Source: Candidatus Aquiluna sp. UB-MaderosW2red (GTDB taxonomy: Bacteria > Actinomycetota > Actinomycetes > Actinomycetales > Microbacteriaceae). From it: a stretch of 64,000 bases of DNA. Position 1 is the first letter of the stretch; each line of letters opens with the position of its first letter. Where the stretch lies: contig NZ_LT627734.1 of assembly GCF_900100865.1 (NCBI RefSeq), positions 310,001-374,000 of the forward strand. Direction: 5' to 3'. The notes under the pieces were generated by a model, which was not told the DNA's origin, ran no database searches, and saw nothing but the letters and a program-made list of their open reading frames with translations. The translations under genes were made by a program, and so were the position numbers. Of this stretch, positions 3,531-29,999 are shown in pieces.

Positions 3531-3618
3531 GGAGGCCTGTCCGAGCGGCCGATGGAGCTGGTCTTGAAAACCAGTGAACAGAAATGTTTCGTGGGTTCGA
3601 ATCCCACGGCCTCCGCCA
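3531..3618 (+). tRNA. tRNA-Ser (anticodon TGA), 3' CCA encoded
   Basis: A complete cloverleaf with a long class II variable arm. The acceptor strand GGAGGCC pairs with GGCCTCC at 3608-3614, followed by discriminator G and encoded CCA. The anticodon loop CTTGAAA sits between CTGGT and ACCAG arms, giving anticodon TGA. The T-arm is GTGGGTTCGAATCCCAC. The final 15 bases (3604-3618) are repeated at 4986, 6359 and 29985, which makes this gene the insertion target of everything up to 29984. The gene itself stays intact because the repeat regenerates its 3' end. Confidence 0.97.
3604..3618 (+). repeat. 15-bp target repeat, copy 1 (tRNA 3' end)
   Basis: CCACGGCCTCCGCCA, the last 15 bases of tRNA-Ser(TGA). 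This is the resident copy of the sequence that flanks each insertion unit downstream. Confidence 0.9.
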
Positions 3619-3667
3619 ATGTGATGTGTCGAGACATACTTGACAAACGGACCCCCGGCATCATGAT

Positions 3668-4840
3668 CTAAAGCTCCAGAGATTTCTCTGGAGCTTTTAG
3701 TTTTGGCCAGTAACTCGCTGTGGGTTCGATTTGATTTTCACTGAGTATTTCCCCGCTTCTGAGGTCGGTGACCATGACTCTTCTAGAGTCAATGATCAAG
3801 AAGACCTGCTTTCCAGCATGAGCTCTTCCAACTCCGATGTGGTGCTGTTTTCCAGCTCAAAGAAGTGAGACTTTGCCAGCGCTGTCAACCCGGTCAGTTC
3901 GAGTTCTTGCGGCCCCAAAGATTGGGTCTTTATTCGGTTTTGCCTTGGGCCTGGCGTCGTATGCCTGCCTCGGGGTTTGGCCATTAACGGCTCGATGGGG
4001 ACGCTCGGTGTTGTAGAGGTATTGGAATTGATCAAGTAGAACCTGGAGCTCTTGAATGCTTCTTGGTTTGGCCTGAGCCGCTAACCAGCGTTTCAGGGTC
4101 TGATGAAAACGTTCGATCTTGCCCTGAGTTTGCGGGTGATTCGGCCTTGAGTTCTTCTGTTCAATTCCAAGGCTTTCCAAAAGGTATTCAAAGGCATTTT
4201 TACCATTTCTGAATCTTGCTGTGAAGACCAGGCCATTATCGGTAAGCGTTGAATAGGGCGCGCCGAATTCAGTAACAAGCTTCATGAAGTCAGCAACCAC
4301 AATCCTTGCTGTGACGCGGTAGTGAGCCTGGCAGCCGAGTAATAAGCGAGAGTGGTCATCTAGGAAATTCAAGACCTCGATGTCCTGTCCGTTGGCCAGT
4401 TTGACGTGGGTGAAATCCGATTGCCAGGTTTCATTCGGCTGGTCGGCCTCAAAGCGCTGCCGGTAGGCAATTGGGCGTTTTTTGGGCTGATGCTGAACCA
4501 GCCCTTGGTCCCGCAGTGACCGCCAGATTGTTGATAACGCCGGAGCACGGGTGTGTTTTGCAATTAGGTAAAACTGGATTGATTGTGCTCCGGCGTCCAA
4601 CCCTTTTGCCAGAAGTTCTTGACGCAGTTGGAAAATCTCGGCGTGCATTTGTTCAGTCAGAGCTTTTGAATTGGATTGAGGTCTTTTGGAGCTTGGTTGA
4701 AATGAGTCTGCTCCCAAAATCCGATAGCGTCGGATCAATTCGTGAACCCATTGCCTTGTAACACCAAACTCCAAGGCGACCGCCGTGACGGACTTCTTCT
4801 GCTCCAAAACCGACATAACTATGAGTGCATTTTTCGACAT
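3668..4840 (-). pseudogene. IS481-family transposase of element A, in-frame nonsense TGA
   Basis: DDE transposase/integrase-core protein. It has an N-terminal helix-turn-helix (VTAVALEFGVTRQWVHELIR), then the rve core with WQSDFTH, LDDHSR, TLTDNG and the catalytic Glu in QGKIERFHQTLKRW. Translation from the ATG at 4840 stops at a TGA (3857-3859) after GKVSLL. Without that stop the same frame continues for 62 more codons (AGKQHHIGVGRAHAGKQVFL...) to a TAG at 3668-3670, matching the full C-terminus of the second transposase (GKVSLRRAGKLHHLGIGRAH). The lesion is most simply CGA (Arg) to TGA. Full length would be 390 residues against 387 in element B. Whether the shortened protein still works is unknown. 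Confidence 0.85.
3670..3698. terminator. Bidirectional hairpin at the 3' end of the transposase gene
   Basis: AAAGCTCCAGAGA and its complement TCTCTGGAGCTTTT form a near-perfect stem with a tiny loop and T-runs on both sides. It overlaps the transposase C-terminal codons. It could end both tRNA-Ser transcription and transposase transcription, and would also block read-through into the element. A near-identical copy is at 6425-6453. Confidence 0.75.
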
Positions 4841-4849
4841 GAAACAAAG

Positions 4850-4984
4850 TGTCAACTATGTCTCGACACATCAAAAACCCCACCAACACCGAACCCGCGC
4901 TCGGGTGTTGGCTTAATCAGAGAAACAGCCTGGGACTGTAAACTATGTCTCGGCACATGTGTCAACTATGTTTTGACACTAGAC
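4850..4984. repeat. Three tandem end-like repeats at the right side of element A
   Basis: TGTCAACTATGTCTCGACAC (from 4850), TAAACTATGTCTCGGCACAT (about 4938) and TGTCAACTATGTTTTGACAC (about 4959) are three versions of the same ~20-bp end motif. They match the left end inverted. Only the outermost adjoins the target repeat. They may be several transposase binding sites or remains of successive end-to-end insertions. Confidence 0.65.
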
Positions 4985-4985
4985 A

Positions 4986-5000
4986 CCACGGCCTCCGCCA
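4986..5000 (+). repeat. 15-bp target repeat, copy 2
   Basis: Exact copy of the tRNA-Ser(TGA) 3' end between elements A and B. Confidence 0.9.
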
Positions 5001-5030
5001 ATGTCATGAGTCGGGACATCGTTCCCGAAT

Positions 5031-5061
5031 GAACCCACGAAATTAGTTTTTTCGTGGGTTC
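5031..5061. terminator. Hairpin at the 3' end of element B transposase
   Basis: GAACCCACGAA (5031-5041) pairs with TTCGTGGGTTC (5051-5061) around a short loop containing the transposase stop codon. An AT-rich run follows on the minus strand. A terminator-like stem overlapping the gene end is also present in element A. Confidence 0.6.
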
Positions 5062-6206
5062 ATTTCATTTCTCCAATAGTTTCGATCCGGCTGGATTAAG
5101 TGTTCGCTTAGGTGTTCTCCAGTTTTTGGGTTGATAACCGACGCATGTGTTTTGTTTGTGAGTATCAGAACTTTGGTTCCGGCGTGAGCTCTGCCAATCC
5201 CCAAGTGGTGAAGTTTTCCGGCCCGTCGAAGTGAAACTTTTCCAGTTTGGTCGATCTTGTCATGACGGGATCTAGCGTGTTCAAAGTCGCTTTCATCACC
5301 AGGTGCTGCCTTTGGCGTTGAGCTGTAAGCATGGGCTGGGGTTTTTCCTTCTAGGGCTCTGTGTGGGCGGTCGTGGTTGTAGCGATCGCGGAAGTAATTC
5401 AGTTGCTGTTGCAATTGCCAAAGCGATTCGGCTTTGGGCTTTTGAAGTAGGTGCTTTTTCAGAGTCTGGTGAAACCGTTCGACCTTGCCTTGGGTCTGGG
5501 GATGATTCGGGGAGGAGTTTTTCTGAATGATCCCTAAGTCACTGAGTTTGTATTCAAACTCGTTTCTGCCTTTGCCAAACCGTGCCGTGAAGACCCTGCC
5601 GTTATCGGTCAGGGTTGATTTCGGAGGCTCAAACTCGACAACCAGCTCTAGAAACAAATCAACGACACTTCGCCCGGTGACTGGGATGTAGGCCCGGCAG
5701 CCCAGCAGGAATCTGGAGTGATCGTCTAAGAAGTTCAGGATTTCAACATCGGTTCCATCGGCCAGTGGCCAGTGGGTGAAATCGGCTTGCCAGGTCTCAT
5801 TTGGTTGGGAGGACTCGAATCTGATGTAGCTGGAGCGAGGTCGCTTTTTCGGTTGCGGAACTATCAACTGATGCTTGTGAAGGATCCTGTGGATCGTGGA
5901 GATTGCCGGTGGCTTTTTGCCAAGCAGTGAAAGTCTTGCTGCAATCGAGGCGGGGCCCGAGTCAAAACCAGCTTCAGTAAGCTCCAGCCGCAACTTGACG
6001 ATTCGATTCTCCAAAGCGGTGGAGGTCTTATTGGGATTCCTGCGAGGTCTTTTGCTCAGTGGCTCGAGAGCCTTTAGGCCTCCTGAGCGATAGCGACCTA
6101 GCAGTATGTTCACCCAGCGTTTTGAGACCCCAAACTTCTCCGCAGCTTGGGTTGCGCTAAGGCCTTGTTGAACAACGGACAAAACAATCACATTTGATTT
6201 CGACAT
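5043..6206 (-). CDS. IS481-family transposase of element B, intact
   Basis: 387 residues. The N-terminal helix-turn-helix is LSATQAAEKFGVSKRWVNIL. The rve/DDE core has WQADFTHW (first Asp), LDDHSRF, TLTDNGRV (second Asp) and QGKVERFHQTLKKHL (Glu), and the C-terminal tail GKVSLRRAGKLHHLGIGRAH typical of these actinobacterial IS481 proteins. The start ATG at 6206 gives MSKSNVIVL, matching MSKNALIV in element A. The catalytic triad is present and no lesion is seen, so this is the only transposase in the window likely to be active. It might act on the ends of the 23.6-kb unit, whose right end is of this type. Confidence 0.9.
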   Translation of the reverse strand: MSKSNVIVLSVVQQGLSATQAAEKFGVSKRWVNILLGRYRSGGLKALEPLSKRPRRNPNKTSTALENRIVKLRLELTEAGFDSGPASIAARLSLLGKKPPAISTIHRILHKHQLIVPQPKKRPRSSYIRFESSQPNETWQADFTHWPLADGTDVEILNFLDDHSRFLLGCRAYIPVTGRSVVDLFLELVVEFEPPKSTLTDNGRVFTARFGKGRNEFEYKLSDLGIIQKNSSPNHPQTQGKVERFHQTLKKHLLQKPKAESLWQLQQQLNYFRDRYNHDRPHRALEGKTPAHAYSSTPKAAPGDESDFEHARSRHDKIDQTGKVSLRRAGKLHHLGIGRAHAGTKVLILTNKTHASVINPKTGEHLSEHLIQPDRNYWRNEMNPRKN

Positions 6207-6358
6207 GTTCCATTTTCATTGAGAACTATGTCCTGAACATCAGAGATTTACCGAACCCACGATTGGGAGCAAAAAACGTGTTGAGGTGGGAATCATCTCC
6301 CGCATCATGCGGGAACGATGTCTTGGATAGAATGGGAACTATGTCCTGGCGTATGACA

Positions 6359-6373
6359 CCACGGCCTCCGCCA
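6359..6373 (+). repeat. 15-bp target repeat, copy 3
   Basis: Exact copy of the tRNA-Ser(TGA) 3' end between element B and the cargo unit. Confidence 0.9.
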
Positions 6374-6499
6374 TTGTGATGTGTCGAGACGTACTTGACA
6401 AACGGACCCCCGGCATCATGATCTAAAGCTCCAGAGAATTCTCTGGAGCTTTTAGTTTTGGCCAGTAACTCTTTGTGGGTTCGATTGCGTTTTCACTTA
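6374..6499 (-). pseudogene. Element-A-type left end with transposase C-terminal fragment
   Basis: These 126 bp repeat 3619-3744 with few changes: the left inverted repeat, the hairpin (6425-6453) and about 25 C-terminal transposase codons (SENAIEPTKSYWPKLKAPE on the minus strand, stop at 6423). The rest of the gene is gone. Similarity breaks at about 6500, where another IS end begins. Confidence 0.8.
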
Positions 6500-6503
6500 A
6501 GAT

Positions 6504-6562
6504 TGTCATGAGTCGGGAACCATGTCTCGACACATATGGGAACTATGTCCTGGCGTATGACA
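6504..6562. mobile_element. 59-bp mini-element made of two IS ends
   Basis: A left end of element B type (TGTCATGAGTCGGGAACC) is joined through an A-type motif (ATGTCTCGACACAT) to a right end of element B type (GGGAACTATGTCCTGGCGTA, TGACA). Nothing lies between them. It resembles a deletion derivative or MITE-like remnant. It is followed at once by a tRNA-Arg 3'-end-like sequence. Confidence 0.6.
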
Positions 6563-6614
6563 CCTCCAAGCGCACTGAGAGCCACGATGCTTTTCAAGAC
6601 TTCGTGGGTTTCTT
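6563..6614 (+). repeat. Decayed copy of the tRNA-Arg 3' end and its terminator
   Basis: CCTCCAAGCGCACTGAGAGC then a degenerate terminator ending CGTGGGTTTCTT resembles CCTTCAAGCGCACTGAGACC and the terminator of tRNA-Arg(ACG) at 51330-51379. It directly abuts an IS end, as the tRNA-Ser repeats do. This suggests the element once sat at a tRNA-Arg gene. Confidence 0.55.
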
Positions 6615-6996
6615 CATCTACTTAAATACCGGGCCAGAGACCCTATCCACCACGAAAGGCAGCCTGCCTGGAGGCGGAAGCCAGCACTCCTAAATCAATG
6701 AGTAGCGAATTCCAAGCATTCACAGCTAGGAGTGGCCAGTATTTGCTAGGCCTGGTAAACATGCGGGGTTATAAAACTAAATAAATTCAACTCGATCTTG
6801 CAGCAATTACGCACCGGCTTTATCGGGTGTGCCCCAGTGATGTTTTGCCTATCAAGCTCTGCCGGATGATAACTGGGCAAGATTGGCGCACTTTGCGACA
6901 AGCGCTTGATCTAAAGCGTCAAGAAAATCTGATTGCCGGGGTTGCCACCCGCAGTCGAAAGCCAACAATCGAGGAGCCCAGCCGTTCCGATCTGGC
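6615..6996. other. No recognisable gene
   Basis: A frame from 6827 on the plus strand is open but runs antisense through the TacA-like gene, and its N-terminal part (VLPIKLCRMITGQDWRTLRQ) was not recognised. The stretch looks like eroded DNA between the IS remnants and the TA genes. Confidence 0.4.
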
Positions 6997-7266
6997 TCAG
7001 CTCAAACTGGCGTTGGCCTTAGTGAGTTTCAAAAGTTCGCGCAATCTTGGATTCGGGACAACAGGCTCACTCAAAGCCCGTTCAAGTGCAAGGTACTCCA
7101 CTGCAGTGAGTTTAAAGATATTGCTCTCAGCAACAAGGCGCTCGGCTTTTTCCAGGGCAGCCGAGACCATAAATGTGGTTAAATCTTGCTCCGCTAGTTG
7201 AGCCGCAGCCTTGATTTCTTCATGATTTTTAGTAGAAATCCTCATGTTGATTCGTGAATCAGTCAT
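6997..7266 (-). CDS. DUF1778/TacA-type ribbon-helix-helix antitoxin
   Basis: 89 residues. The N-terminus RINMRISTKNHEEIKAAAQL is a ribbon-helix-helix DNA-binding motif, followed by a helix with LTTFMVSAALEKAERL and a C-terminal tail that in TacA proteins wraps the partner acetyltransferase. It would neutralise a GNAT toxin and repress its own operon. The partner lies at 7318-7818 on the same strand but upstream. This toxin-first order is reversed from the usual antitoxin-first layout. The toxin is broken, so this antitoxin is probably a leftover. The call is based on the DUF1778-like pattern. Confidence 0.8.
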   Translation of the reverse strand: MTDSRINMRISTKNHEEIKAAAQLAEQDLTTFMVSAALEKAERLVAESNIFKLTAVEYLALERALSEPVVPNPRLRELLKLTKANASLS

Positions 7267-7317
7267 CTGTTTCCCCTTCCAATGACAGCGTACATAGATT
7301 GTACGTACGCGTCAAAT

Positions 7318-7818
7318 CTACAGAGAGACTTTCAGCTGCTTCATGGTCATGAACATTCTGTTTGACTCCGAGTCAAGCCTGATAAATCCAAATCGGCCAT
7401 AGAAAGCGATTGCGTTGTTATCTATAGCGTCAACTATGACCATTTCCAATCCAGCAGATTCAGAGGCGCCAAGAGCCTTATGCAAAGCCTCTCCAAGCAT
7501 CAATTTGCCGATTCCTCGGCCTTGAGCGGCATGGTCAACAGCTAATCTCGCTATCAGAAATGCTGGCTTCGCGTAGTTCGAAACTGCTATCCCGTCTAAG
7601 TCAGCCCCGGGCTTTACCTCCCCAAAAACAGTTGTGAAGTTTCCCTGGAGCTGAAGAGAGTCTCGGTCAACAGCAAAAAACGTTCGAGTGCGAAACTTGT
7701 CTTCGTTTTGGCCAGCCTATGACCTCAGCCACTCATCCATGACCCTATTTCCGCAGGAGAAATTTTCCCTAGGCACATCTCGATCAAAAGGTATTACTTC
7801 GCTTGAATGAAAGTCCAC
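7318..7818 (-). pseudogene. TacT-like GNAT acetyltransferase toxin with an in-frame TAG
   Basis: Read from the GTG at 7816-7818, the frame gives VIPFDRDVPRENFSCGN and VMDEWLRS, then a TAG (7717-7719, codon 34), then AGQNEDKFRTRTFFAVDRDS, AFLIARLAVDHAAQGRGIGK and AIAFYGRFGFIRL. This is the whole TacT/GNAT toxin of about 166 residues. The acetyl-CoA loop QGRGIG and the C-terminal YxRFGF are present. TacT enzymes acetylate aminoacyl-tRNAs and stop translation. The TAG most simply derives from CAG (Gln in the usual LRxQA segment). The remaining downstream frame lacks the N-terminal substrate region, so the toxin is likely dead. Confidence 0.85.
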
Positions 7819-7928
7819 GTTCCAAGATTACTCAACCGCAAAATAACGCTAGGAGCAAATAAATCGCAACGCTGGCACTTATCTGTTACGCACAGATTCC
7901 CTTCGAAAGGAGGAAACGGACATATTTG

Positions 7929-7982
7929 CCAAGAGCAACCGGGCCATCGCCCAGCCTTGGTTATCAGCCAGGCCAGTTATAG
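7929..7982 (+). pseudogene. mazF fragment
   Basis: About 18 codons reading EQPGHRPALVISQASYS match the intact MazF at 59226 (EQAGHRPALVISPAAYN). The sequence then switches abruptly to a tRNA-Arg-like fragment. No other part of mazF is visible. A GGAGG motif about 20 bp before the fragment is not positioned for a start. Confidence 0.75.
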
Positions 7983-8019
7983 CGGATCAGAAGGTTGGGG
8001 CTCGAATCCCTCAAGGGGC
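7983..8019 (+). repeat. tRNA-Arg-like 3' fragment
   Basis: CGGATCAGAAGGTTGGGGCT then CGAATCCCTCAAGGGG matches the anticodon-arm-to-T-arm part of tRNA-Arg (CGGATCAGAAGGTTGGGGGT, CGAGTCCCTTCAAGCG), with decay. It cannot fold as a full tRNA. It is probably an old attachment-site remnant. Confidence 0.6.
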
Positions 8020-8167
8020 AGTTTGTCAAAGTGCTTGTCAGGGTCGCCGTACATACGACAAATCGCGAATTTCGAATCGCGTTTGCCCACAACTGAGCAG
8101 CATCGAGCCGGGTCTCTGCAGCTTTGCCTAATTTTACGGGTGATTCCGCACGATCATCAAATTTCAT

Positions 8168-8857
8168 TCAGAGCCGCGGGCGCTTTTCTTGTGAGCGTAA
8201 GCCATGCTGTTGCAGTTCGGCGATCCATGATTTCCTTGTCGAGGCGATTAGCTTCTGCTCAATTTTCGACAGCGGGATGATGGTACGTATCAAGTCGAAT
8301 GCATTACCAATCATGACTGGCAGATCCTCGATGCTTACGCTCGACGCTCGCCCAAGGATCTCTGCTGCGACTGTGGGGTCGACATTCTCGAGTTTCAACA
8401 GAGCGAGAATCTCACGTGCATCTTTTTTGCCCTTCTCTGAGAAGTGTCGGTCGAGCAGGGCTGCCATCTTGGTGGATATATGTGCTTCGATACAAAGCAG
8501 CGTCCACTTCTCAAACTTGAGATCGTCAGAGTACTCGGCGAGCACTTCGACTTTGAGGCGAAGCTTGTCGCCGAGTTGGGATTCGTAGGGAAGGTAGATG
8601 TCTAGGTGAACGTTGTCGATTGTGGCTCGAAGCTTTCTGCCTTGGTGGTTATGGCTCGACGAGAGGTCGGTCATCAGTTGCTCGAGTTTGTGGCGGCTCT
8701 GTTGGGAAGTGATGAGGTCAATGTCGAGACTGATCTCGCCGCCGACGCGAATAAATGTTGCCCACCCGCCGATGAGGATGGAAGGCTCAAGGTCGTGACC
8801 AAGCCGGTCGAGAAGAGCACGGATGACTCCGTTGTTATCTTCGTAGAGACTAGGCAC
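8168..8857 (-). CDS. AbiEii-like nucleotidyltransferase toxin
   Basis: 229 residues. Near the N-terminus ILIGGWATFIRVGGEISLDI then DLI gives the G-G-x-A and DxD pattern of the AbiEii/MNT-like nucleotidyltransferase fold, followed by an acidic segment (VHLDIYLPYESQLGD) and a helical C-terminus. Family members transfer nucleotides to tRNA or other targets and halt growth until neutralised. Its GTG start at 8857 overlaps the stop of the regulator upstream by eight bases, so the two are translationally coupled. A 14-codon stump of a paralogous toxin is preserved at 59577-59621. This is a divergent member; the closest family is inferred from motif and partner. Confidence 0.75.
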   Translation of the reverse strand: MPSLYEDNNGVIRALLDRLGHDLEPSILIGGWATFIRVGGEISLDIDLITSQQSRHKLEQLMTDLSSSHNHQGRKLRATIDNVHLDIYLPYESQLGDKLRLKVEVLAEYSDDLKFEKWTLLCIEAHISTKMAALLDRHFSEKGKKDAREILALLKLENVDPTVAAEILGRASSVSIEDLPVMIGNAFDLIRTIIPLSKIEQKLIASTRKSWIAELQQHGLRSQEKRPRL

Positions 8858-9461
8858 TGGTGCGCTGCTCCCAATCGGCTTCGGCGAACAGCTTTGTCTT
8901 TAGCGCGCGCAGGAACTCGGCGGACTGCCACCCGGGACTCGCCCACAGGTCCACGTAGGTCTGCGCGAGGCTGGCGTATCCGGATCGCCAAGTACGTGCC
9001 GCGACTGAGTCCTGGCCGAGGAGGATGACTTCGTCTGACTTTGGGAAGTCCTTTTGAGAGACGGGGTGGGTTGTGTAGAGGATCCGTCGTCCGAGATCGG
9101 CAACAGTATTGCGGCCACCGAGGTAATGCACGGCGGCACTGCTGCCGCTCAGTGCGTATTCGACTTCAGTGCCGTCGAGAAACTCTTGCGCTGCGGTCAA
9201 CGTGGTTGAGGCCACAGTGTCCGCGCGTAGATTGCGGTGCGCGGCGAGGGCCTCTATTAGCTTCTGCGGCGAAACGACGGTGTAACCACGAAGCGGGTTC
9301 GCGCGCACAGCCCCGATGTCGATAAGTCGTCCCAGTGCCTGGTGGGTAGTAGAAGGGGCGACCGAGGCGGCATCCGCAATCTCGCCGATGCTGCTCCAAT
9401 CTCGCTGACCACCCAGAGCGGCATCGGCCAGAGTGCGCCAAGTGATTTCCACGTTCTTCAT
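8850..9461 (-). CDS. AbiEi-like winged-helix antitoxin
   Basis: 203 residues. A winged-helix N-terminus (SIGEIADAASVAPSTTHQAL, then GRLIDIGAVRANPLRGYTVV) precedes an alpha/beta domain with ALSGSSAAVHYLGG and a tail WASPGWQSAEFLRALKTKLF. The layout of wHTH plus a larger C-terminal domain, placed before a nucleotidyltransferase, fits antitoxins of AbiEi type that bind their own promoter. A second full copy (59614-60225) and a C-terminal fragment (56815-56956) lie elsewhere in the window, and upstream AT-rich motifs are conserved between the two full copies. Annotation as AbiEi proper is uncertain because the sequence is unlike the classic AbiEi at 53193. Confidence 0.7.
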   Translation of the reverse strand: MKNVEITWRTLADAALGGQRDWSSIGEIADAASVAPSTTHQALGRLIDIGAVRANPLRGYTVVSPQKLIEALAAHRNLRADTVASTTLTAAQEFLDGTEVEYALSGSSAAVHYLGGRNTVADLGRRILYTTHPVSQKDFPKSDEVILLGQDSVAARTWRSGYASLAQTYVDLWASPGWQSAEFLRALKTKLFAEADWEQRTSA

Positions 9462-9476
9462 GGGACCAGTATTGCA

Positions 9477-9516
9477 GTATTTATATAAACATGGAAGCCT
9501 GCGTCTGTATTTATAT
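9477..9516. promoter_or_regulatory. Candidate operator of the AbiEi-like operon
   Basis: GTATTTATAT occurs twice as a direct repeat (9477-9486 and 9507-9516), 30 bp apart, just upstream of the antitoxin start. The same block, with ATGTAAACATGGAAGC and GCATTTATATGGA, stands before the paralogue at 60225. Non-coding conservation at two loci points to an autoregulatory binding site. Confidence 0.55.
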
Positions 9517-9547
9517 GGATGACGACGATGAAGTTCACCACAACTGT

Positions 9548-9712
9548 GGGCAAGCGATGCAGACGCTTGGTGTTACAGACCTCTCGAAATTCATCCAGCA
9601 GCTCATGCAGTTCTTTTAGGTCTTTATTGCCTTGGTCGAGCCGCTAACCATTTTTTGAGAGTTTTATGAAAGTGCCCTCGGTTGGCTTGGGTTTGCGGGT
9701 GGTTGGGAGGGC
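9548..9712 (-). pseudogene. Fossil IS481 transposase, C-terminal core fragment
   Basis: On the minus strand this reads SPPNHPQTQANRGHFHKTLK then KWLAARP, a stop, and after a frameshift KDLKELHELLDEFREVCNTK. It aligns with SRPNHPQTQGKIERFHQTLK and SIQELQVLLDQFQYLYNTER of element A. The catalytic Glu and several frames are lost. With the N-terminal fragment at 12062 it may be the two halves of one old copy. Confidence 0.75.
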
Positions 9713-9790
9713 TTTCATGAAAATAGAATTTCCGTCGCGGGCTGGAGCCTCGAAATGTTTAGCATTGAACGCCGCCGGCGTGACTGCAAA

Positions 9791-11071
9791 TCAAACACGT
9801 TGGAAGTCTTTGGCAATGGCGCCGAACACGCTGGTGGGGATTTTTGCGGTAGCGGCAAACATTGCCCAGGAGTCGACGGCATCATTCACTTCGTTGAGAA
9901 TATTCGCGGCCCCTGGAACATTATGACGCTCAGCGAACACCATGAGCTCTGCATGGGTTATGCCTTGAAATTTGCCTCCGATACTCATCAGATGCTGGAA
10001 TGTCCAAGGGCCTTGGGGGTTGAACGCATGTGTGACATCGTATGCGGGGGCGAGTGACCACTGCCCACTCGAGTTCATCAGGAACCCAAAGTTTTTGGTG
10101 TGGTCGTCACAATTTGCAGCCGCCAAGTTGAACGCCATCCGGCGAAATCCCTGAACCGCAGCAGCTTCACCGAGATCGAGAGCGACAATCGCGTTTTGAT
10201 ATTGGGCATAGTCGTGAACACCAACCGCGTTGTAATCCAACTCGCTCATGGCACACAGCGACTGCATATGCAGCTTTGTCAGACCGTCCGGACGATCGAA
10301 GCGGCGGGTCATAAAATGTGCCCGCCCGTTTTCTTCCAATAGACGCGTCTGTGCCATCGTGACACCCGCAGCCTGCGCCATAAGGGAATACGCATACTCA
10401 ATGCGTCCATACAGCTGAGTGGCACCAAGCTGCCTATCCACACCGATGCCGTCGAACTTCAGCAGCCAAGGCTCCAAGCCGGGCACTGCTTGCTGGCCCG
10501 GATAGAGCGCCCCTGTGTCCGGATCGATATTCACAACCGCTTTGGCGCGGGCCCCTCCAGCGCTAGTGCCCACAGCAAGGATCTGCTGCAACGCGGCTTC
10601 AGATTCGCTGTCCGTGCCGAGCTTGCCAGCTACCACCTTCCGGGCCGCCTTTACAAGCTCGCCGATGTTGAGCATGGATGCTTCCGGCGCGCCTGGGCCG
10701 ACATCAGGAACAAATTCAAGAGCCCCCATGCTGCGCGCACCGGCATAAGCCAGCCGGTCCAGCGCACTGAGGTTGCCAAGACTGGCACCTTGGCGCTCCA
10801 GTTCAGCAGTAACAATGCTGTGACCGAAACGGTCCGGAAGGGCATCAGCGATTGCCGAAGGCAGCCCATAGAACGTCTCGACCGGCAGTCCTGGGAACGT
10901 GTAGCTCCGAGTCCGGCCCGGCATCGTTAATGGCGCGAATTCGATACCGGTACGAACCCACTCCGGTGTGTACTCAAAAACATAGGCACGGGATCGGGTG
11001 CCGCGTGCAAGAGCACCGACATACTGCCCCCAAAGGTAGACCTTGATGAGCTGCGCCGATTCAAACGCCAT
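9791..11071 (-). CDS. hipA: HipA-type serine/threonine kinase toxin (copy 1)
   Basis: 426 residues from the ATG at 11069-11071, giving MAFESAQLIKVYLWGQYVGA. A longer open frame upstream overlaps hipB and is not preferred. The HipA N1 region is followed by AVGTSAGGARAKAVVNID (the loop that carries the autophosphorylated Ser in HipA) and the kinase motifs AANCDDHTKNFGFLM and LAPAYDVTHAFNP. HipA kinases phosphorylate aminoacyl-tRNA synthetases such as GltX and cause persistence. The start overlaps the hipB stop by 11 bases. A close paralogue at 54958-56241 shares most residues. Both kinase motifs are intact. Confidence 0.92.
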   Translation of the reverse strand: MAFESAQLIKVYLWGQYVGALARGTRSRAYVFEYTPEWVRTGIEFAPLTMPGRTRSYTFPGLPVETFYGLPSAIADALPDRFGHSIVTAELERQGASLGNLSALDRLAYAGARSMGALEFVPDVGPGAPEASMLNIGELVKAARKVVAGKLGTDSESEAALQQILAVGTSAGGARAKAVVNIDPDTGALYPGQQAVPGLEPWLLKFDGIGVDRQLGATQLYGRIEYAYSLMAQAAGVTMAQTRLLEENGRAHFMTRRFDRPDGLTKLHMQSLCAMSELDYNAVGVHDYAQYQNAIVALDLGEAAAVQGFRRMAFNLAAANCDDHTKNFGFLMNSSGQWSLAPAYDVTHAFNPQGPWTFQHLMSIGGKFQGITHAELMVFAERHNVPGAANILNEVNDAVDSWAMFAATAKIPTSVFGAIAKDFQRV

Positions 11072-11414
11072 GGGTGCTCGTCTTCTTCCCAACTCGTTTC
11101 CTCGGTGCGCGTTGTCTATTGCCAGGTTGGAGGGAAAGCTCCCGCGCCAAGGCCAAAGGGCTGATCTCACCGCCGGTTTCGTCAAGTAGCTCAAACCAAT
11201 CGGTTCGTCCCAGCGCGCGAACCACTTTGATGAGGACCGCCAGAGTGCCCGGACCGCCATTCTCCAGTTTGCTTAGTGTGGCTCGACTGATGGATGCTCG
11301 ATCTGCCAAGCTTTGCTGGTCAATCTCACGAGCAAGCCGCGCGCCACGCAGCGATGCACCAATAAAGACCTGCCACTCCGCGGTTGTTCGAGTAATGCCG
11401 TTCATACTGGTCAC
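11061..11414 (-). CDS. hipB: HipB-type XRE-family antitoxin (copy 1)
   Basis: 117 residues. The Cro/C1 helix-turn-helix is LAREIDQQSLADRASISRAT then LSKLENGG, followed by AVLIKVVRALGRTDW. HipB neutralises HipA and represses the operon. It precedes hipA with an 11-bp overlap. The C-terminus RAPRKRVGKKTSTHGV is basic. The paralogue at 56228-56581 has the same length. Confidence 0.9.
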   Translation of the reverse strand: MTSMNGITRTTAEWQVFIGASLRGARLAREIDQQSLADRASISRATLSKLENGGPGTLAVLIKVVRALGRTDWFELLDETGGEISPLALARELSLQPGNRQRAPRKRVGKKTSTHGV

Positions 11415-11432
11415 TATAGCCTAAACCATAAA

Positions 11433-22705: not shown

Positions 22706-22826
22706 CTATTGGGCCAGCATGCAGATTTTTATCCGATTGTTCCGAGCGTTGCACATAGGAACCTCAGCGGTAGTTCCTGTACCTTATATATTTTATAGTC
22801 GATGCGGATAGTGAATTAGGTGATCA

Positions 22827-23483: not shown

Positions 23484-23518
23484 CACTCGGGCGCAGCTAT
23501 GAACTGCAGCGGGCAGCC

Positions 23519-24721
23519 TTAAACCGCTCCTTCTTTCCGGAGAGCTGCAATCTCGTGCGGGTCGAGATGAAGAATTCGGCTGAGGACGCTATCTGTATCG
23601 GCACCGAGATCCGGCCCAGCGTGAACGATTGCTCCCGGTGTCCGCGAGAGGCGCGGCATTGGAGCTGGCATCGGCACCACTCCGATGCCTTGCGCGGGCA
23701 CCCAGGCAACGGCTGCACGCTCTTGGACGTGGGGGTCTGTCAGGATGTCGGCGGCGGTATTGATACCGCCCGAGGGCACTCCTACGTCGTTTAGAAGAGC
23801 GATGACGTCCTCCGAGGGATGCTGAAGTGCCCATTGAGCCACGATTTCATCGATCTCGGTCTGTCGCTCTCCCCGCGCGATGTGGGTTTTGAAACGAACA
23901 TCCTCTGCGAGTTCGGGCTGCCCCATGGCAGATGCGAGGCGCGAGAACACGGTGTCTTGGTTCGCAGCAATCACAACGTAGCGATCGTCGGCTGCGAGAT
24001 ACGCATTCGATGGGGCGATTCCTGGTAGCGTCGGCCCGGTGCGCTCGCGAATCACATCGAAGATCGCATAATCGGCTAGCAGAGACTCAGTCAAGGCGAG
24101 CACAGATTCGTATATCGCTGTGTCGACCTCTTGTCCCTTTCCCGAATGCTCGCGCTCGTACAATGCAGTGATTATACCGAGGGCCGAGTAAAGTCCCGCG
24201 AGAGAGTCCCCGAGTGATAGACCGACCCTCACTGGTTGTCGGTCTGGATATCCGACCAGGTGTCGGAGACCAGCCATCGCCTCGCCGATCGCTGCGTAGC
24301 CGGCGCGCTGGGCATAAGGTCCATCCTGACCGTAGCCGCTAACGTGAGCGATGATTAGGCGAGGATCCTTCTTCATGAGATCTTCGGGTGCCAGGTTCCA
24401 CTTCGCAAGAGTGCCGGGGCGAAAGTTTTCGACGAGCACATCGGCTTGCGATATGAGCTCGCCCGCGATTCGCTGCCCGCTTTTCATGCGCAGGTTGCAC
24501 GTGACCGACTGCTTGTTCCGCGCAAGAGTGGACCACCAAACCCCTTTCCCGTCCTCGCTTTGCCGTCCCCAGGAGCGGAGAGCATCGCCCTGATCAGGAG
24601 GTTCAATTTTTATTACCTCGGCGCCGAGGTCACCAAGGATTTGCCCACAATAAGGGCCAGCGATGAGTGACCCCATCTCAATTACGCGTATACCTTCTAA
24701 AGGTCGGACGGCCATAGTCAT
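23519..24721 (-). CDS. Class III (CaiB/BaiF) CoA-transferase, copy 2
   Basis: 400 residues from the ATG at 24721, preceded by GGGAGA; an alternative start lies 10 codons upstream. Motifs are VIEMGSLIAGPYCGQILGDL, GAEVIKIEPPDQGDALRSWG, VENFRPGTLAKWNL, VSGYGQDGPYAQRAGYAAIG and the catalytic Asp172 in VGLSLGDSLAGLYSALG. It is only modestly similar to copy 1, so the two probably use different acids. It lies divergent from the GMC-small-subunit-HMG-lyase operon, which suggests it makes the CoA ester that the HMG-CoA-lyase-type enzyme cleaves. SUGCT-type members of this family use succinyl-CoA and hydroxymethylglutarate. Confidence 0.9.
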   Translation of the reverse strand: MTMAVRPLEGIRVIEMGSLIAGPYCGQILGDLGAEVIKIEPPDQGDALRSWGRQSEDGKGVWWSTLARNKQSVTCNLRMKSGQRIAGELISQADVLVENFRPGTLAKWNLAPEDLMKKDPRLIIAHVSGYGQDGPYAQRAGYAAIGEAMAGLRHLVGYPDRQPVRVGLSLGDSLAGLYSALGIITALYEREHSGKGQEVDTAIYESVLALTESLLADYAIFDVIRERTGPTLPGIAPSNAYLAADDRYVVIAANQDTVFSRLASAMGQPELAEDVRFKTHIARGERQTEIDEIVAQWALQHPSEDVIALLNDVGVPSGGINTAADILTDPHVQERAAVAWVPAQGIGVVPMPAPMPRLSRTPGAIVHAGPDLGADTDSVLSRILHLDPHEIAALRKEGAV

Positions 24722-24804
24722 TCTTAGGTCTCCCTTGATTGACTGCAACACTACACCGCCGAACGGGCCTCATGGGAGAAGACGCACCGCTTAGGAAGTC
24801 TTAT

Positions 24805-24815
24805 TACATAATGTA
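24805..24815. promoter_or_regulatory. Palindrome between divergent CoA-transferase and GMC operons
   Basis: TACAT-A-ATGTA is a perfect odd-centred palindrome in an AT-rich patch between the two divergent starts. The position suits a GntR-type operator covering both promoters. No experimental link. Confidence 0.45.
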
Positions 24816-24933
24816 TTTATGCTGAAACAATTGGGTATTATATCTAGCAGAGGTGAGCGATGTGGGCCCTTATCAGCACCTCCGAGAACCCATTACGACA
24901 CGAGGCGAGACCGAAGACGGAGGCCGGCAACCC

Positions 24934-26523
24934 ATGACCGAATCCACGCACACGGATGTAATAGTCGTCGGTGCAGGGTTGGCCGGATCAATCACGGCAA
25001 CGGAACTGGCTCGAGCGGGATACTCGGTGCTGTGCCTTGAGCAGGGCGACTGGCCCCACTACGGACGTGACGGAGTGGTGCACGACCTTGAGTCAGAGAC
25101 GGCAGCTGAGCGCTGCTGGAAGCGCGATCCGAACGATCGAGACAACTCTTCTGACTATCCAATTGATGATTCAGAGTCGGATGTCGCAGCGCTCATGTGG
25201 AATGGTGTCGGAGGGAGTACCGTCCTCTATCTCTCTAAGTGGAATCGCATGACACCCGGAGACTTCCGTGTGAAATCGCAGGACGGTGTCGCGGAGGATT
25301 GGCCAATTAGCTACGAGGACCTTGAGCCTTTTTATGTGGAGGTAGAGAGTCAACTCAAAATCGGTGGTTTGAGTGGAGATCCCGCCTATCCCAAAGGCGA
25401 AGGACCTCTTCTCCCGCCGATTCCTCTCCGTGATTTCGGTCGTCTCATAGCGAAGGCCTTCAATGACCGTGGCATGGCTTGGTGGCCTGGTGCAAGCTCT
25501 GTTTTCCCGGGAAAGCGCCGCCTCAAGTCGAGCGAAATGGATGGCGCGGTCAAGATGTCGACCGATGTACGTCTCTGGCCAGAGGCGTTGAGCCTTGGTG
25601 TGGAGCTCCGCACTCATTCTCGTGTCAGCCGGGTACTGACTGAAGGGGATCGAGCAGTTGGGTGTGAATATGTCGATAGGGGCGGTAAGCGTCACAGCGT
25701 CTACGCGGATTCCGTGATTCTTTGTGCGAACGGCATCGGTACGCCCAGGATTCTTTTGATGTCAAAGTGCGAGCAACACCCAGACGGACTCGCAAATTCA
25801 TCAGGGCTCGTCGGCAAGCGTCTCATGATGCACCCGTTTGGCGCAGTCGCAGGAGTCTTCGACCACGATATTGAGTCCGCGGTAAGTCCGCTTGGTCAGC
25901 AACTCCAGAGCATGCACTTCTATGAAAGCGACCCATCGCGTGGATTCGTCCGCGGGGTCAAGTGGGGGCTCCAACCGACTGGGGGTCCTCTCAGCCTTAC
26001 GCGTTCCTATCCTTGGGAGGCAGCGAACGAGTCCCTTTGGTACGAGAACTTTCACAGTACGGTGAAGCGACGGTACAACAGGTCCGCCATGTTTAGTTTC
26101 GTCGGCGAAGACCTCCCGCTCGAATCGAATCGTGTCGAGCTCGACGAAGAGTCGAGCGACGACAGCGGGCTCCCCGGCGTTAAGATACGGTACCGAGCGG
26201 ATGACAATTCGCGGGCCCTGCTCGAGTGGCACACGCGTGAGGCAAAAGAGGTCTTCTTGGCGGCGGGCGCAATCGACGTGGTTGCAGCCCCGATGGTGAG
26301 ACAGAGCGGCTGGCACCTCATGGGAACAGCCGTCATGGGCGATGACCCCCGTACCTCGGTCACTGACAAACATGGCCGGTGCCACGATATTTCCAACCTG
26401 TACATCTTCGACTCAAGCACCTGGGTCACCTCAGGCGGACTCAACCCAGTCGCTACGCAGGCTGCGCTTGCGCTGTGGTCGACGAGGGCTTTTATAGCGG
26501 AGGGTAAAATCCATGAAAAGTGA
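24934..26523 (+). CDS. GMC-family FAD oxidoreductase
   Basis: 529 residues from the ATG at 24934, which follows a GGAGG; a GTG at 24853 would add 27 residues before the FAD site. The N-terminus has the dinucleotide fold VIVVGAGLAGSITATELARA and an acidic end LCLEQGDWP. The middle has VGGSTVLYLSKWNRM and ADSVILCANGIGTPRILLMS. The C-terminus has GWHLMGTAVMGDDPRTSV (catalytic His region) and STWVTSGGLNPVATQAALAL. It oxidises an alcohol or polyol, passing electrons to a quinone or carrier. Its end overlaps the next gene by 11 bases. Similar to the large subunit of gluconate/sorbitol-type dehydrogenases. Confidence 0.9.
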   Translation: MTESTHTDVIVVGAGLAGSITATELARAGYSVLCLEQGDWPHYGRDGVVHDLESETAAERCWKRDPNDRDNSSDYPIDDSESDVAALMWNGVGGSTVLYLSKWNRMTPGDFRVKSQDGVAEDWPISYEDLEPFYVEVESQLKIGGLSGDPAYPKGEGPLLPPIPLRDFGRLIAKAFNDRGMAWWPGASSVFPGKRRLKSSEMDGAVKMSTDVRLWPEALSLGVELRTHSRVSRVLTEGDRAVGCEYVDRGGKRHSVYADSVILCANGIGTPRILLMSKCEQHPDGLANSSGLVGKRLMMHPFGAVAGVFDHDIESAVSPLGQQLQSMHFYESDPSRGFVRGVKWGLQPTGGPLSLTRSYPWEAANESLWYENFHSTVKRRYNRSAMFSFVGEDLPLESNRVELDEESSDDSGLPGVKIRYRADDNSRALLEWHTREAKEVFLAAGAIDVVAAPMVRQSGWHLMGTAVMGDDPRTSVTDKHGRCHDISNLYIFDSSTWVTSGGLNPVATQAALALWSTRAFIAEGKIHEK

Positions 26524-26968
26524 GCTCACCTCTGTGCAACGCGATACGTTGCGATTATTCGCCCTAACTCTGATCCCGTCTAGCCCCGATGGCCCCTCCG
26601 CCGATGAGGCCGAGGTTGCACCAACCTGGATAGACGTGACCTTGGCCGAGCGGCCGGACTTAGTACCCGGAGTGCTGCGGATTCTTGACGCCTATGACGG
26701 TTCCGAGCCTCGTCTGTATCTCGAGCGGCTGGAGCGTGAGGCAAAGGGAGACTTTGCGAAAATTACCTATGCCATCGCGGGGTCATACTTCAAATCGCCG
26801 GTGGCCAAAGAATGGCTGGGGTTCGCTAGGATCCTTGACGAGTATGAGAGCGCCGAGCCGGAGCCAACGAAGGAAACGATGGAACTGCTGCAACCGGTGC
26901 TTGCGCGCGGGGCATTTTACCGCCCAACTTCGCTGCGTAGGCACCCCTTGCCCGAGGAGCTGTCATGA
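26513..26968 (+). CDS. Small partner of GMC oxidoreductase (gluconate 2-dehydrogenase subunit 3-like)
   Basis: 151 residues, largely helical, with the pattern LRLFALTLIPSSPDGPSADE near the N-terminus that is common in gluconate 2-dehydrogenase subunit 3-like proteins. No Tat signal is visible, unlike many relatives, so the complex may stay cytoplasmic. It overlaps the GMC gene by 11 bases and the lyase by 4 bases, which implies strict co-translation. Its expected role is assembly or stability of the GMC subunit. The family assignment rests mainly on context and the LIP motif. Confidence 0.6.
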   Translation: MKSELTSVQRDTLRLFALTLIPSSPDGPSADEAEVAPTWIDVTLAERPDLVPGVLRILDAYDGSEPRLYLERLEREAKGDFAKITYAIAGSYFKSPVAKEWLGFARILDEYESAEPEPTKETMELLQPVLARGAFYRPTSLRRHPLPEELS

Positions 26969-27879
26969 AGCACGTCGAAATCTTGGAAGTGGGTCCACGA
27001 GACGGACTGCAAAATGAGGACAGGGTTCTCGATGTCGACACACGTGTCGAGCTCATCAATCGTTTGGTGAGCGCCGGTGTTCGGCGAATGGAAGCCGTGA
27101 GTTTCGTGCGCCCTGATCTCGTGCCGCAGATGGCTGGCGCGGAAGAGGTAATGGCACAGGTGCCGCACTCGGCTGATGTCTCCTACGTTGGTCTGGTGCT
27201 GAATCGCCGCGGTGCTGAGCGGGCCGTCGAGACGCAGGTGCAGGAGCTCAACATGGTTGTGCCCGTCACGGATACCTTTGCTATGCGTAACCAGGGTAGG
27301 ACTGTCGAGCAGCTCCTAGTAGAGGCTGCAGAAACGGTGCAGATAGCGAAGGAAGCCGGACGATTCGCAAGTGTCACGCTGGCGGTATCGTTTGGGTGCC
27401 CGTTCGAGGGAGTGGTATCGCTGGAGCGGGTGGAAGAAGTCGTGCGGGCTATCCTCGACATGGGTTGCGACGAGATTGCCTTTGCCGACACCATCGGCGT
27501 CGGCGGGTCGAGACGCGTGCGCGAGTTCGCTCAAATGGCGAAGAGCCTATTCGGTCCGGAGCTCTTGCGCTTTCACTTCCACAACACTCGTAACACGGGT
27601 TATAGCAATGCCGTGACGGCTGTGAGTGAGGCAGCCGCTCTTAATATGCCCTTGGTGATCGATGCCTCGGTTGGAGGGTTTGGTGGTTGCCCCTTTGCGC
27701 CGGCGGCTACTGGTAACATAGCGACCGAGGACGTTCTCTACGGATTCTCCGTTGATGGGGTTTCTATGAAAGGCAATCTCGATGCTGTCGCGCTCGTCGA
27801 ACATGCCAGGTGGTTGAGCTTGCAATTAGACAAGCAGGTTCAGTCCCTCATCCCGAAAGCTGGGTGGTTCCCCGCCTGA
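26965..27879 (+). CDS. Hydroxymethylglutaryl-CoA lyase-type enzyme
   Basis: 304 residues, DRE-TIM barrel. The signature VGPRDGLQNE carries metal ligand Asp13. His204 and His206 lie in LRFHFHNTRNTGYSN. The catalytic Cys242 sits in the loop GGFGGCPFAPAATGNIATED, with Asn251 as ligand. All residues needed by HMG-CoA lyase are present, so cleavage of HMG-CoA to acetyl-CoA and acetoacetate, or of a close analogue, is likely. It overlaps the small subunit gene by ATGA. Length is normal. It could serve leucine degradation, but no other leucine gene is nearby, and the CoA-transferase next door points to a free hydroxy-acid as the source. Confidence 0.9.
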   Translation: MKHVEILEVGPRDGLQNEDRVLDVDTRVELINRLVSAGVRRMEAVSFVRPDLVPQMAGAEEVMAQVPHSADVSYVGLVLNRRGAERAVETQVQELNMVVPVTDTFAMRNQGRTVEQLLVEAAETVQIAKEAGRFASVTLAVSFGCPFEGVVSLERVEEVVRAILDMGCDEIAFADTIGVGGSRRVREFAQMAKSLFGPELLRFHFHNTRNTGYSNAVTAVSEAAALNMPLVIDASVGGFGGCPFAPAATGNIATEDVLYGFSVDGVSMKGNLDAVALVEHARWLSLQLDKQVQSLIPKAGWFPA

Positions 27880-28480
27880 CTCGCCCAAATTGGCCGACAT
27901 AGGGTGGTGTTGATGTGAGACCGAATTGCAGGATGGTTTCTGGGCCAATGGCTGCATTCCCAACGAGTCACTTTGTGGCGAATAGACCCCTAGAACTCCT
28001 TACTTTCAATATGTTGGATGAGAGTCTGAACTTGACGGGAGAATACGGTTTGGTGCCGGAGGGTCGCTGGTTCGGTTTTTACTCAGGGCATCGCTGAGCC
28101 AGGCGACTGGCATTTGGCACCCATAAAGACGCGGTAGCTGGCAACCAACGCACCCGGGGTAGGTTTATGGCTTCGAGACCGGCCCCGCTTGGAGCGCGCT
28201 GAGTTCTTATGGAACGTCCTCGGTACGGATGCCTAGGAGAATTTTGGCTGTTCATTTCGGCTCGTACTTTTGCAGAGAGCTTTCGATCCAACCTCCCAAT
28301 TGCTCACTGCCGAATCGCCAAGGCTGCTTTTTAAAGTACCGCCAAGGTGCAGTTTTTGAGTGCCACGGAGGTCTGTTTCATGGCTTGCTCCTTGACGAAG
28401 TCTCCTGCGTCGACTAGACATGTGTGTGTGCATCTCTAAGAAAACGTGGAGCCTCGAGAATTACGGAAGATGATTCAAAT
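27880..28480. other. Intergenic, no supported gene
   Basis: About 600 bp separate the lyase from the cyclase. Small open frames exist but none has a recognised product or a good ribosome site. A short gene may have been lost here, or the cyclase has its own promoter. Confidence 0.4.
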
Positions 28481-29350
28481 ATGAGTATTGTGGGCGGTCG
28501 CATCGAAGTAGCTGGGCTGATGGACTTATTGAAGCTTCCCAAGCAAGGTGAGGTTTTCGATTTGGATCCGGGACGCTGGCCTGGAATGCCGATTTGGGCT
28601 GGTCATCCTCCATTTCAGGTTCTCACCTACCGAAGCCCTCGCGGTATTAGGGTCGATGGGGATCAGGATTGGCTTGCGCCCGAGATCAATTCGGCGAACA
28701 TAGGTCTGATATCGGAGATGATGATCGCCACAAATCACTCGGGTTCGCATGTCGACGCGCTGGGTCACATCTGCAGCGGCGCCGACGATGAGTGGTCCGG
28801 CGGGCGGGCTTCAGAGGACCTCGGAGACTTCGGAGTGCTCAAAGGCGATGCGGCGTCAATCGTTCCGTTTATCACGCGGGGCGTGATGGTCGACATACCC
28901 GCTTATCTCGGTGTCCCACAGCTCGAGGCCCATTACCCGATCTCGCTCGAAGAATTCCTTGGCGCGGCCAAAGCGCAGAATGTCGAAGTGCGCGAGAACG
29001 ATGTTGTGTTTGTGCGAACTGGGATGATGGCGGGTTGGCCAGACCCCGAGCGTCTCGCTCTGACGGCAGGCGCGGGTATCACTCGACCAATCGCTGAGTA
29101 CTGCGCTTCGAAAAAAGTGCGGGCGGTCGGCGCAGACACGGAAGGCTGCGAGGTGATGCCCTCGATCATAGAGGGAAACCCGCACCCCGTGCACGAAACG
29201 CTTCTAGTAAAGAATGCGATCCACATTATGGAGAATATCTATCTCGAGGAGCTCGCCAGTGAGCACGTGCACGAGTTCCTCTTCATTGGGTTACCCCTGA
29301 AGATCCGCGGAGCGACGGGATCCATGATGCGACCTATCGCCATCACGTAG
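28481..29350 (+). CDS. Cyclase-family metal-dependent hydrolase (kynurenine formamidase-like fold)
   Basis: 289 residues from the ATG at 28481; a frame open 19 codons upstream lacks a ribosome site. The family metal motif H-x-G-x-H-x-D-x3-H is present as NHSGSHVDALGH with His86, His90, Asp92 and His96. VRTGMMAGWP and GADTEGCEVMPS follow. Members hydrolyse amides, lactones or cyclic esters. With the SMP-30 enzyme this gives the cluster a second possible ring-opening hydrolase. It is the last catabolic gene before the right end of the 23.6-kb unit. Confidence 0.85.
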   Translation: MSIVGGRIEVAGLMDLLKLPKQGEVFDLDPGRWPGMPIWAGHPPFQVLTYRSPRGIRVDGDQDWLAPEINSANIGLISEMMIATNHSGSHVDALGHICSGADDEWSGGRASEDLGDFGVLKGDAASIVPFITRGVMVDIPAYLGVPQLEAHYPISLEEFLGAAKAQNVEVRENDVVFVRTGMMAGWPDPERLALTAGAGITRPIAEYCASKKVRAVGADTEGCEVMPSIIEGNPHPVHETLLVKNAIHIMENIYLEELASEHVHEFLFIGLPLKIRGATGSMMRPIAIT

Positions 29351-29984
29351 ATAAGGCGTGAATTGGGGCCTACGCAGGTAGGCCCGAAGCGGGCCTATCA
29401 AGTGATCGAGAATACCATCGGACAGTTTCGAGCCAGTCGAGGTCGCAATGAATCTCATTGCCAACGGTCGAAAAGTGTTCATGCCGATGTTTTGTTTACG
29501 AATAAGCCCTCCGCCATCGCAGTCGCGTCCAACATTGGGTGCTTGGCGCGTCAGATAGGTGAGACCCGCACTACCGCTAACGGCGGGCCCATGCGTGACT
29601 TCTGGACTTGTGTAATCCGCAGGCGGCGAGCGCCTACCAGCAGTACTTAGATAGATAGGCGGCAGCTGCTTGTTGCCTGCAGCAAGGGCAGCGTCCAGTT
29701 TGAACGGGCGTCAAATGGTTTGTGTAAGAGGTGGCTTGTCAGACTGGAGGAATGAATTAATGTTTTGCCTTTGAATGAAAAGAAGAATATTGCAGCCGTC
29801 TCGACTGCGGGGCGGCGGTGTTTTCTTTTGGCCAGAGTCTGCAGTAAACGATTCGCCAGATTACCGATGTGGGCTTGTTGGACGCTCTGGACCAGAACAT
29901 CCATGCCGGTCAGGCGTCTAATTTCACTACACCGGTCACATTGTGACGCCGATACATAAGGGAACTATGTGCTGGCGTATGACA
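29351..29984. other. Gene-free right end of the cargo unit
   Basis: No confident gene. The last 25 bp (29960-29984) are the right-end motif GGGAACTATGTGCTGGCGTA plus TGACA of element B type, touching the 15-bp tRNA repeat. A minus-strand frame at 29647-29904 was not recognised. Confidence 0.5.
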
Positions 29985-29999
29985 CCACGGCCTCCGCCA
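29985..29999 (+). repeat. 15-bp target repeat, copy 4 (right border of the island)
   Basis: Exact copy of the tRNA-Ser(TGA) 3' end. Chromosomal sequence, starting with A-rich DNA and a terminator, resumes here. Confidence 0.9.

Follow-up and report, generated by a model that had tools for sequence, protein, structure and literature searches.

Tyrosine-integrase islands and prophages rebuild the 3' end of the tRNA gene at which they insert and leave a direct repeat, and their integrases work by exchange between matching att sites and are limited to one or a few tRNAs. Simple insertion sequences (IS) usually pick their targets loosely or by short motifs; at the locus described here they lie in an exact tRNA register and the tRNA gene is unaltered. 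This locus belongs to a 64,000-nucleotide stretch of Candidatus Aquiluna sp. UB-MaderosW2red (contig NZ_LT627734.1, positions 310,001 to 374,000; hereafter the window, numbered from its first base), the genome of which is one contig of 1.66 Mb. The window very probably holds a stack of insertions made at tRNA-Ser(TGA) by an IS481 subgroup that is specific for the T-arm of tRNA genes. Unlike the integrases, the DDE enzyme of these elements makes a new duplication, and the group uses 12 tRNA isotypes.

The IS481 family itself is already known, and the best label for the present elements is a tRNA-T-arm-specific IS481 subgroup. They share a single DDE transposase and TGT...ACA ends with ISLxc2 and ISLxx4, and the transposases of the two elements in the window, B and A, score 253.3 and 229.9 bits in the IS481 model of NCBIfam (NF033577; cut-off 224). 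ISLxc2 is described in excerpts of PMC2516522 as duplicating NCTAGN, the same site flanking ISLxx4. In contrast to both, the present subgroup has a T-arm target, one orientation and register, and usually a terminator-like hairpin at the end that faces the tRNA. Tn7-like transposons and CRISPR-associated transposons (CASTs), for which tRNA genes are named as safe attachment sites in an excerpt of PMC11406308, likewise have a TnsB/IstA-type DDE transposase and TGT/ACA ends, but they depend on dedicated TnsD/TniQ or CRISPR targeting, whereas the present elements have one protein in about 1.3 kb and a duplication of 15-16 bp into which the tRNA end falls. Casposons resemble them in a median duplication of 15 nt and differ in their Cas1 enzyme, in the PolB found in the elements and in an overlap that falls short of the T-arm. 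Eukaryotic tRNA-targeting retrotransposons, which reportedly take tRNA genes as targets, use other machinery. Dada DNA transposons also target tRNA genes, with insertion near the anticodon loop according to an excerpt of PMC4046053. In text searches of the open-licence PMC literature (ISfinder being outside this search), no report was found of IS481 elements at tRNA genes, nor was a T-arm habit found described for any simple one-enzyme mobile element.

Stacked units behind tRNA-Ser(TGA)

The insertion site is made up of the following features:

3531..3618, + strand: tRNA-Ser(TGA), the target gene, sequence intact (ARAGORN)
3604..3618, + strand: duplication copy 1, the 15-bp tRNA 3' end (nucleotides 62-76), directly after TTCGAATC
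3620..4985, - strand: element A, IS481-type, 1366 bp, TGT/ACA ends
3857..4855, - strand: open frame of transposase A, 332 residues; the homologous frame extends to 3683 via one in-frame stop
4986..5000, + strand: duplication copy 2, tRNA-Ser 3' end
5002..6358, - strand: element B, IS481-type, 1357 bp
5043..6206, - strand: transposase B, 387 residues, frame open, with helix-turn-helix (HTH) domains, an RNase H core and a C-terminal beta domain
6359..6373, + strand: duplication copy 3, tRNA-Ser 3' end
6375..29984: third unit, 23,610 bp, left end A-type, right end B-type, tRNA-Ser duplication on both flanks
29985..29999, + strand: duplication copy 4, tRNA-Ser 3' end

The last 15 bp of tRNA-Ser(TGA), CCACGGCCTCCGCCA, occur in four exact copies in the window. 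When up to three mismatches were allowed, seven matches were obtained, the three non-exact ones each carrying three mismatches, and 100 shuffled sequences gave a mean of 2.5, seven being reached in one of them. The four copies bound three stacked units, each with TGT at its start and ACA at its end, namely TGTGATG...AGACA in element A, TGTCATG...TGACA in element B and TGTGATG...TGACA in the third unit. A preliminary description of this DNA had reported four copies of the tRNA-Ser end separated by TGT[G/C]ATG...GACA intervals, and our analysis recovered them at exactly the same positions. Because the tRNA sequence is whole, the gene is presumably still functional after the insertions.

Besides their length and ends, elements A and B show the single gene that is a hallmark of IS481, and complete relatives are mostly 1.22-1.39 kb long. 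Their transposases are 51% identical, and the other transposase models that matched them all stayed under their own cut-offs. The DDE/RNase H core matches Pfam rve and rve_3, and D142, D201 and E243, which we take from knowledge of the family to be the catalytic triad, are invariant across 28 aligned transposase rows. The AlphaFold2 model of transposase B reached a mean pLDDT (per-residue confidence) of 82 and a predicted TM-score (pTM) of 0.61; its N-terminal helical domains match HTH families, and its fold matches were of the IstA/TnsB/Mu type, the best PDB matches in Foldseek being IstA and TnsB with modest whole-chain TM-scores of 0.28-0.42. The homologous frame of A contains a single in-frame TGA and that of B is uninterrupted; owing to this stop, A probably cannot work autonomously. 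Of the two complete IS481-like elements announced earlier, both can be kept as IS481 members by their transposase scores, and only the intactness of A has to be given up.

T-arm junctions of relatives and a sister branch at other sites

Relatives were collected with transposase B from 199 genomes of the family (33 with a match at 1e-40, 53 places) and from named GTDB contigs (39 loci), and with a 28-row profile from 393 genomes of the class (42 with a match at 1e-70). The copies were oriented by their transposase, and the test was for TTCRANTC (or CTCRANTC) followed by 14-18 bases and TGT at the transposase-3' side. It covered 139 rows, of which 84 had the pattern and 55 did not; it excluded L053 (coinciding with L095), L078 and L079 (both without a transposase that could be used) and twelve places examined later.

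The 84 rows represent 82 distinct T-arm junctions, and the gap from TTCRANTC to TGT is 14 bases in 3, 15 in 44 and 16 in 35 of them. A whole tRNA is found at 63 junctions, with 12 isotypes and 22 anticodons, and only the tRNA 3' part was recognised at the other 19, one of which is masked upstream. Five clade copies that the pattern or its range had missed were seen by eye to sit on a T-arm (L062, L117, L166, L176 and L180), and nine array copies resemble B in that they occupy a duplicated tRNA end and are preceded by the right end of another copy. The remaining pattern-less rows comprise 18 outgroup copies, one further row with a repeated sequence (L060, the same as L056), three unclear cases and 19 contig-edge or truncated copies. 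The twelve places examined later gave six T-arm junctions by pattern, one by eye (L238) and five that were not judgeable. Element A itself shows TTCRANTC-N14-16-TGT with the facing transposase 3' end directly, and B and the third unit do so via the array. When A, B and a relic elsewhere in the genome were included, 99 clade copies were judgeable: 87 lie on a T-arm, nine on a duplicated tRNA end and three are unclear. None is at a clearly unrelated site, and homologues at random sites with unrelated duplications, the outcome that the preliminary description had named as contrary to its proposal, are thus not what the clade copies present. Later copies served as a test, and 10 of the 10 judged sit on the T-arm. 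What weighs on the other side is that L096, L145 and L167 lack a clear T-arm and that 19 rows of the pattern test and five of the twelve later places could not be judged.

The duplicated stretch runs from tRNA nucleotide 62 to nucleotide 76 or one base beyond, and consists of the T-stem 3' strand, the acceptor 3' strand and CCA. It is 15 bp in the window and mostly 15-16 bp in the relatives; IS481 target duplications are 4-15 bp long, which places these at or 1 bp above the upper limit. The right-hand copy was located for 68 of the 82 junctions, with at least 14 identical bases in 65, and none was found nearby for 14. A control from the opposite element end found the pattern in 2 of the 139 rows, neither at an IS end, compared with 84 at the tRNA-facing end; the pattern is nearly confined to the transposase-3' end, and therefore the transposase gene points toward the tRNA. 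The empty site with a single 15-bp copy, which had been expected in relatives, was present in 17 of 19 same-genus loci, where the tRNA-Ser 3' end occurs once in 2-4 kb and is followed by non-IS DNA. Of the other two, L129 has a one-base variant of the tRNA-Ser end and then non-IS DNA, and L139 ends before the tRNA.

These data bear on two other explanations. If insertion were near-random and copies survived at harmless sites only, tRNA 3' ends would be favoured as safe sites by selection. However, the register is constant to 1-2 bp over 82 distinct junctions, just one element end faces the tRNA, and a sister branch from the same class of genomes is found at other sites; we regard this explanation as scarcely credible, and it was set aside for the fixed register and the facing end. 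It is also highly improbable that the repeats belong to a tyrosine-integrase island at tRNA-Ser as its attachment sites, with the IS elements as mere passengers. A 15-bp repeat of the tRNA 3' end does lie at both edges of a 26-kb foreign-looking region, and many of the partial tRNAs at the 19 junctions resemble the anticodon-to-3' halves left by integrase islands. But every IS has its own flanking copy, which the IS ends abut, 63 junctions are at whole tRNA genes, single 1.3-kb insertions with like repeats are found at many tRNA genes, and no integrase or recombinase domain was present among the 19 cargo proteins scanned, the remaining frames being outside that scan. The island explanation was set aside because each IS has its own duplication and the protein closest to the right repeat (308 residues) is a cyclase.

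In a tree of 90 transposases, the 16 rows from non-tRNA sites form one branch with a support of 100/95, apart from the other 74, of which 61 were tagged tRNA, 4 array and 9 none; the nine comprise contig edges, one array copy, L145, L167 and L180. None of the 18 outgroup copies lies on a T-arm. Their duplications can be long, with 14-15 bp of unrelated sequence in 7 of the 18, 8 bp in one and 6 bp in one, nine being unscored by the script. Since long duplications occur in both groups, the stagger is common to them and the T-arm target is the difference: T-arm targeting belongs to one IS481 branch and not to the whole family. Dedicated target recognition, proposed in the preliminary description, is in this way supported, with the T-arm instead of one tRNA as the common feature and with one branch instead of the family as its bearer. 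After the rows tagged none or array had been re-inspected, we read the tree as one change of target. The root, and with it the direction of this change, is arbitrary, the program flags long branches (L142, L167 and others), and the raw tags, which need 12 changes for the tRNA label, speak against a single change. Sister enzymes with other sites make the evolution of target specificity directly testable. One outgroup branch (L178, L179, L181, L183 and L187, in genomes G379 and G424) has like flanks, several with a GATCGCTSAGCGAC-like palindrome, which suggests a different dedicated target.

Arrays of copies are present in several genomes. Locus L210 of genome G181 has four duplications around three elements, of which the middle one is long and the outer two are short. 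Short non-autonomous elements of about 360-380 bp with like ends lie between tRNA-end duplications in L210 and in L208 (genome G030, about 380 bp). The relic mentioned above (L117, at about 126.7 kb of the same genome) is a decayed B-like sequence of about 580 bp with a tRNA-Arg(ACG) 3' part and a decayed duplication. T-arm junctions were also found in an Arthrobacter plasmid (L207), an IMG/VR contig (L190) and a same-genus genome (L234), and the first two, both at a tRNA end, are possible transfer vehicles. No match at 1e-30 was obtained in annotated phage records, and no tmRNA gene was found in the oriented loci. Two contig-end pieces of genome G295 (L177 on contig C3 and L241 on contig C2) have a common tRNA-Pro duplication and may be one element split by the assembly.

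Probable target reading and the tRNA-facing hairpin

Neither A nor B contains a second open frame of at least 100 residues, each holding one, and separate target-selection or ATPase genes (TnsC, TniQ/TnsD) are lacking inside both. As these elements of about 1.3 kb have no other long gene, the transposase alone likely reads the T-arm directly. Clade-specific transposase residues were listed. Alternatively, the targeting may be real but indirect: what leads the transposase to the site could be a host factor, a cruciform of the T-arm, or else the transcript of the tRNA or the complex transcribing it. The T-loop and T-stem form an inverted repeat able to extrude, and tRNA genes are highly transcribed. 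Related Tn7-like systems select their targets via partner proteins or guide RNAs, as an excerpt of PMC11406308 states. Several copies, however, including one on a plasmid and the relic of the same genome, are on partial tRNAs without the 5' half, although the insertion may predate this loss, and we consider indirect guidance unlikely. There was no preference for G52, C62 or C74 (51, 51 and 53 of 53 targeted tRNAs compared with 41, 41 and 42 of 42 untargeted ones), and A73 was present in 39 of 53 targeted and 17 of 42 untargeted tRNAs, the untargeted set being small, with many same-genus tRNA-Ser and with four tRNAs without the motif excluded. The T-arm motif is kept in untargeted tRNAs too, and its conservation therefore does not separate direct from indirect targeting.

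Terminator-like hairpins were noticed just inside the tRNA-facing ends of A and B and also beyond the last duplication:

3670..3697, + strand: hairpin of element A, along the direction of tRNA transcription
5028..5064, + strand: hairpin of element B, found by our own rule only and missed by the tool scan
30023..30050, + strand: hairpin past the last duplication, perhaps the original tRNA terminator, displaced by about 26 kb

By our rule, a hairpin plus a T-run in the first 170 nt of an end, such a structure is present in 62 of 71 distinct tRNA-facing ends, in 3 of 58 distal ends, in 46 of 355 shuffles and in 1 of 15 outgroup ends. The hairpin may replace the tRNA terminator displaced by the insertion, but a role for the convergent transposase gene is just as conceivable. 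Several points count against a replacement terminator. The rule was written after examples had been noticed, the hairpin is missing in 9 of the 71 tRNA-facing ends, and in 6 of the 62 cases (L042, L055, L083, L160, L162 and L164) it is the terminal repeats that make the hairpin. In addition, a terminator tool applied to the window reported 8 sites, compared with 4.1 (standard deviation 2.4) in shuffles, and did not find the hairpin of B; the same scan detected those of A (3670) and of a mini-element in the third unit (6425). If it is true that the hairpin ends tRNA transcripts, these IS would clearly exemplify an element that evolved to be tolerated.

In the mechanism that we propose, a single DDE transposase would join one strand after nucleotide 61, between TTCRANTC and the next C, and the other strand 15-16 bp downstream, past CCA. 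Repair of this stagger would duplicate the T-stem 3' strand, the acceptor 3' strand and CCA, the duplication being seen at the junctions and the chemistry postulated; the copy nearer the tRNA would then remain complete, and the other would mark the opposite end of the element. On insertion the transposase gene would point its 3' end toward the tRNA, and the hairpin would usually lie just inside that end of the element, where it probably substitutes for the displaced terminator and separates two convergent genes. As the restored T-arm is again a target, insertions would stack, with the youngest closest to the tRNA.

The 23.6-kb third unit and its cargo

Within the third unit, a mini-element is followed by a tRNA-Arg 3' end and then by the cargo:

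6375..6562: 188-bp mini-element, left end A-type, right end B-type (27/27 identical to B)
6563..6577, + strand: CCTCCAAGCGCACTG, the tRNA-Arg(ACG) 3' end, identical to that occupied by the same-genus copy L234
13358..27879: catabolic cargo, with CoA-transferases, an aldolase, an aldehyde dehydrogenase, a zinc-dependent alcohol dehydrogenase, a sugar-type ABC transporter, SMP-30, GntR-FCD, a GMC oxidoreductase and an HMGL-type lyase
29958..29984: right end of the third unit, B-type, 25/27 identical to B

The tRNA-Arg(ACG) gene of the window itself (51268-51341) is one base off CCTCCAAGCGCACTG. Because the tRNA-Arg 3' end inside the unit is identical to the site of L234, the left part of the unit formerly lay, to judge from this identity, probably at the tRNA-Arg of a relative. 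The cargo has a guanine-plus-cytosine content of 54-59%, compared with 51-54% outside.

The reading that we favour is that the third unit moved as a composite, whose left end would come from the mini-element once at tRNA-Arg and whose right end is of B type. A serious rival, which we hold to be quite possible though somewhat less probable than not, is that the unit was assembled in place by nested insertions and deletions that left IS ends at its borders. The unit has one tRNA-Ser duplication outside two IS ends, and for assembly in place it speaks that these outer ends are of unlike type and that the right-hand IS is recognised over 27 bp only; yet both are TGT/ACA termini at a tRNA-Ser duplication, and the tRNA-Arg 3' end inside the unit matches that of a same-genus relative. 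Twenty long loci were inspected, of which 3 lack a junction by pattern (one of them, L210, was read as an array) and 17 were counted. Evidence from elsewhere goes against the composite and in favour of assembly in place: no cargo was seen in these 17, 15 of them being closed within about 3 kb without any, and cargo behind the 14 junctions that lack a right-hand copy was checked where these were among the 20 long loci. For L208 and L219, no copy that closes the outermost element was present within 20 kb. When 14.7 kb of the cargo were compared with 396 genomes of the order, 7 others gave a match, in each case of about 1 kb at 66-67% only. Cargo is seen in the window alone, and therefore the composite reading rests on one case. 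The cargo unit of the preliminary description accordingly keeps its IS-type ends and its tRNA-Ser duplication, but its ends are of two types and it stands as a single case.

If the composite reading is accepted, a one-protein reader of the T-arm with its own replacement terminator, and with ends able to bring in more than 20 kb of foreign genes, could be a DDE counterpart of integrase islands. We put this forward tentatively, as a reading with nearly as much for it as against it. On this assumption, reading of the T-arm, one orientation and an own terminator would together make the element harmless at any tRNA gene and allow repeated stacking. It would be a second possible route, besides integrases, for islands at tRNA genes, and the small single transposase is a compact candidate for insertion at safe sites. 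The cargo unit also encodes a HipA-like protein (9791-11260, - strand).

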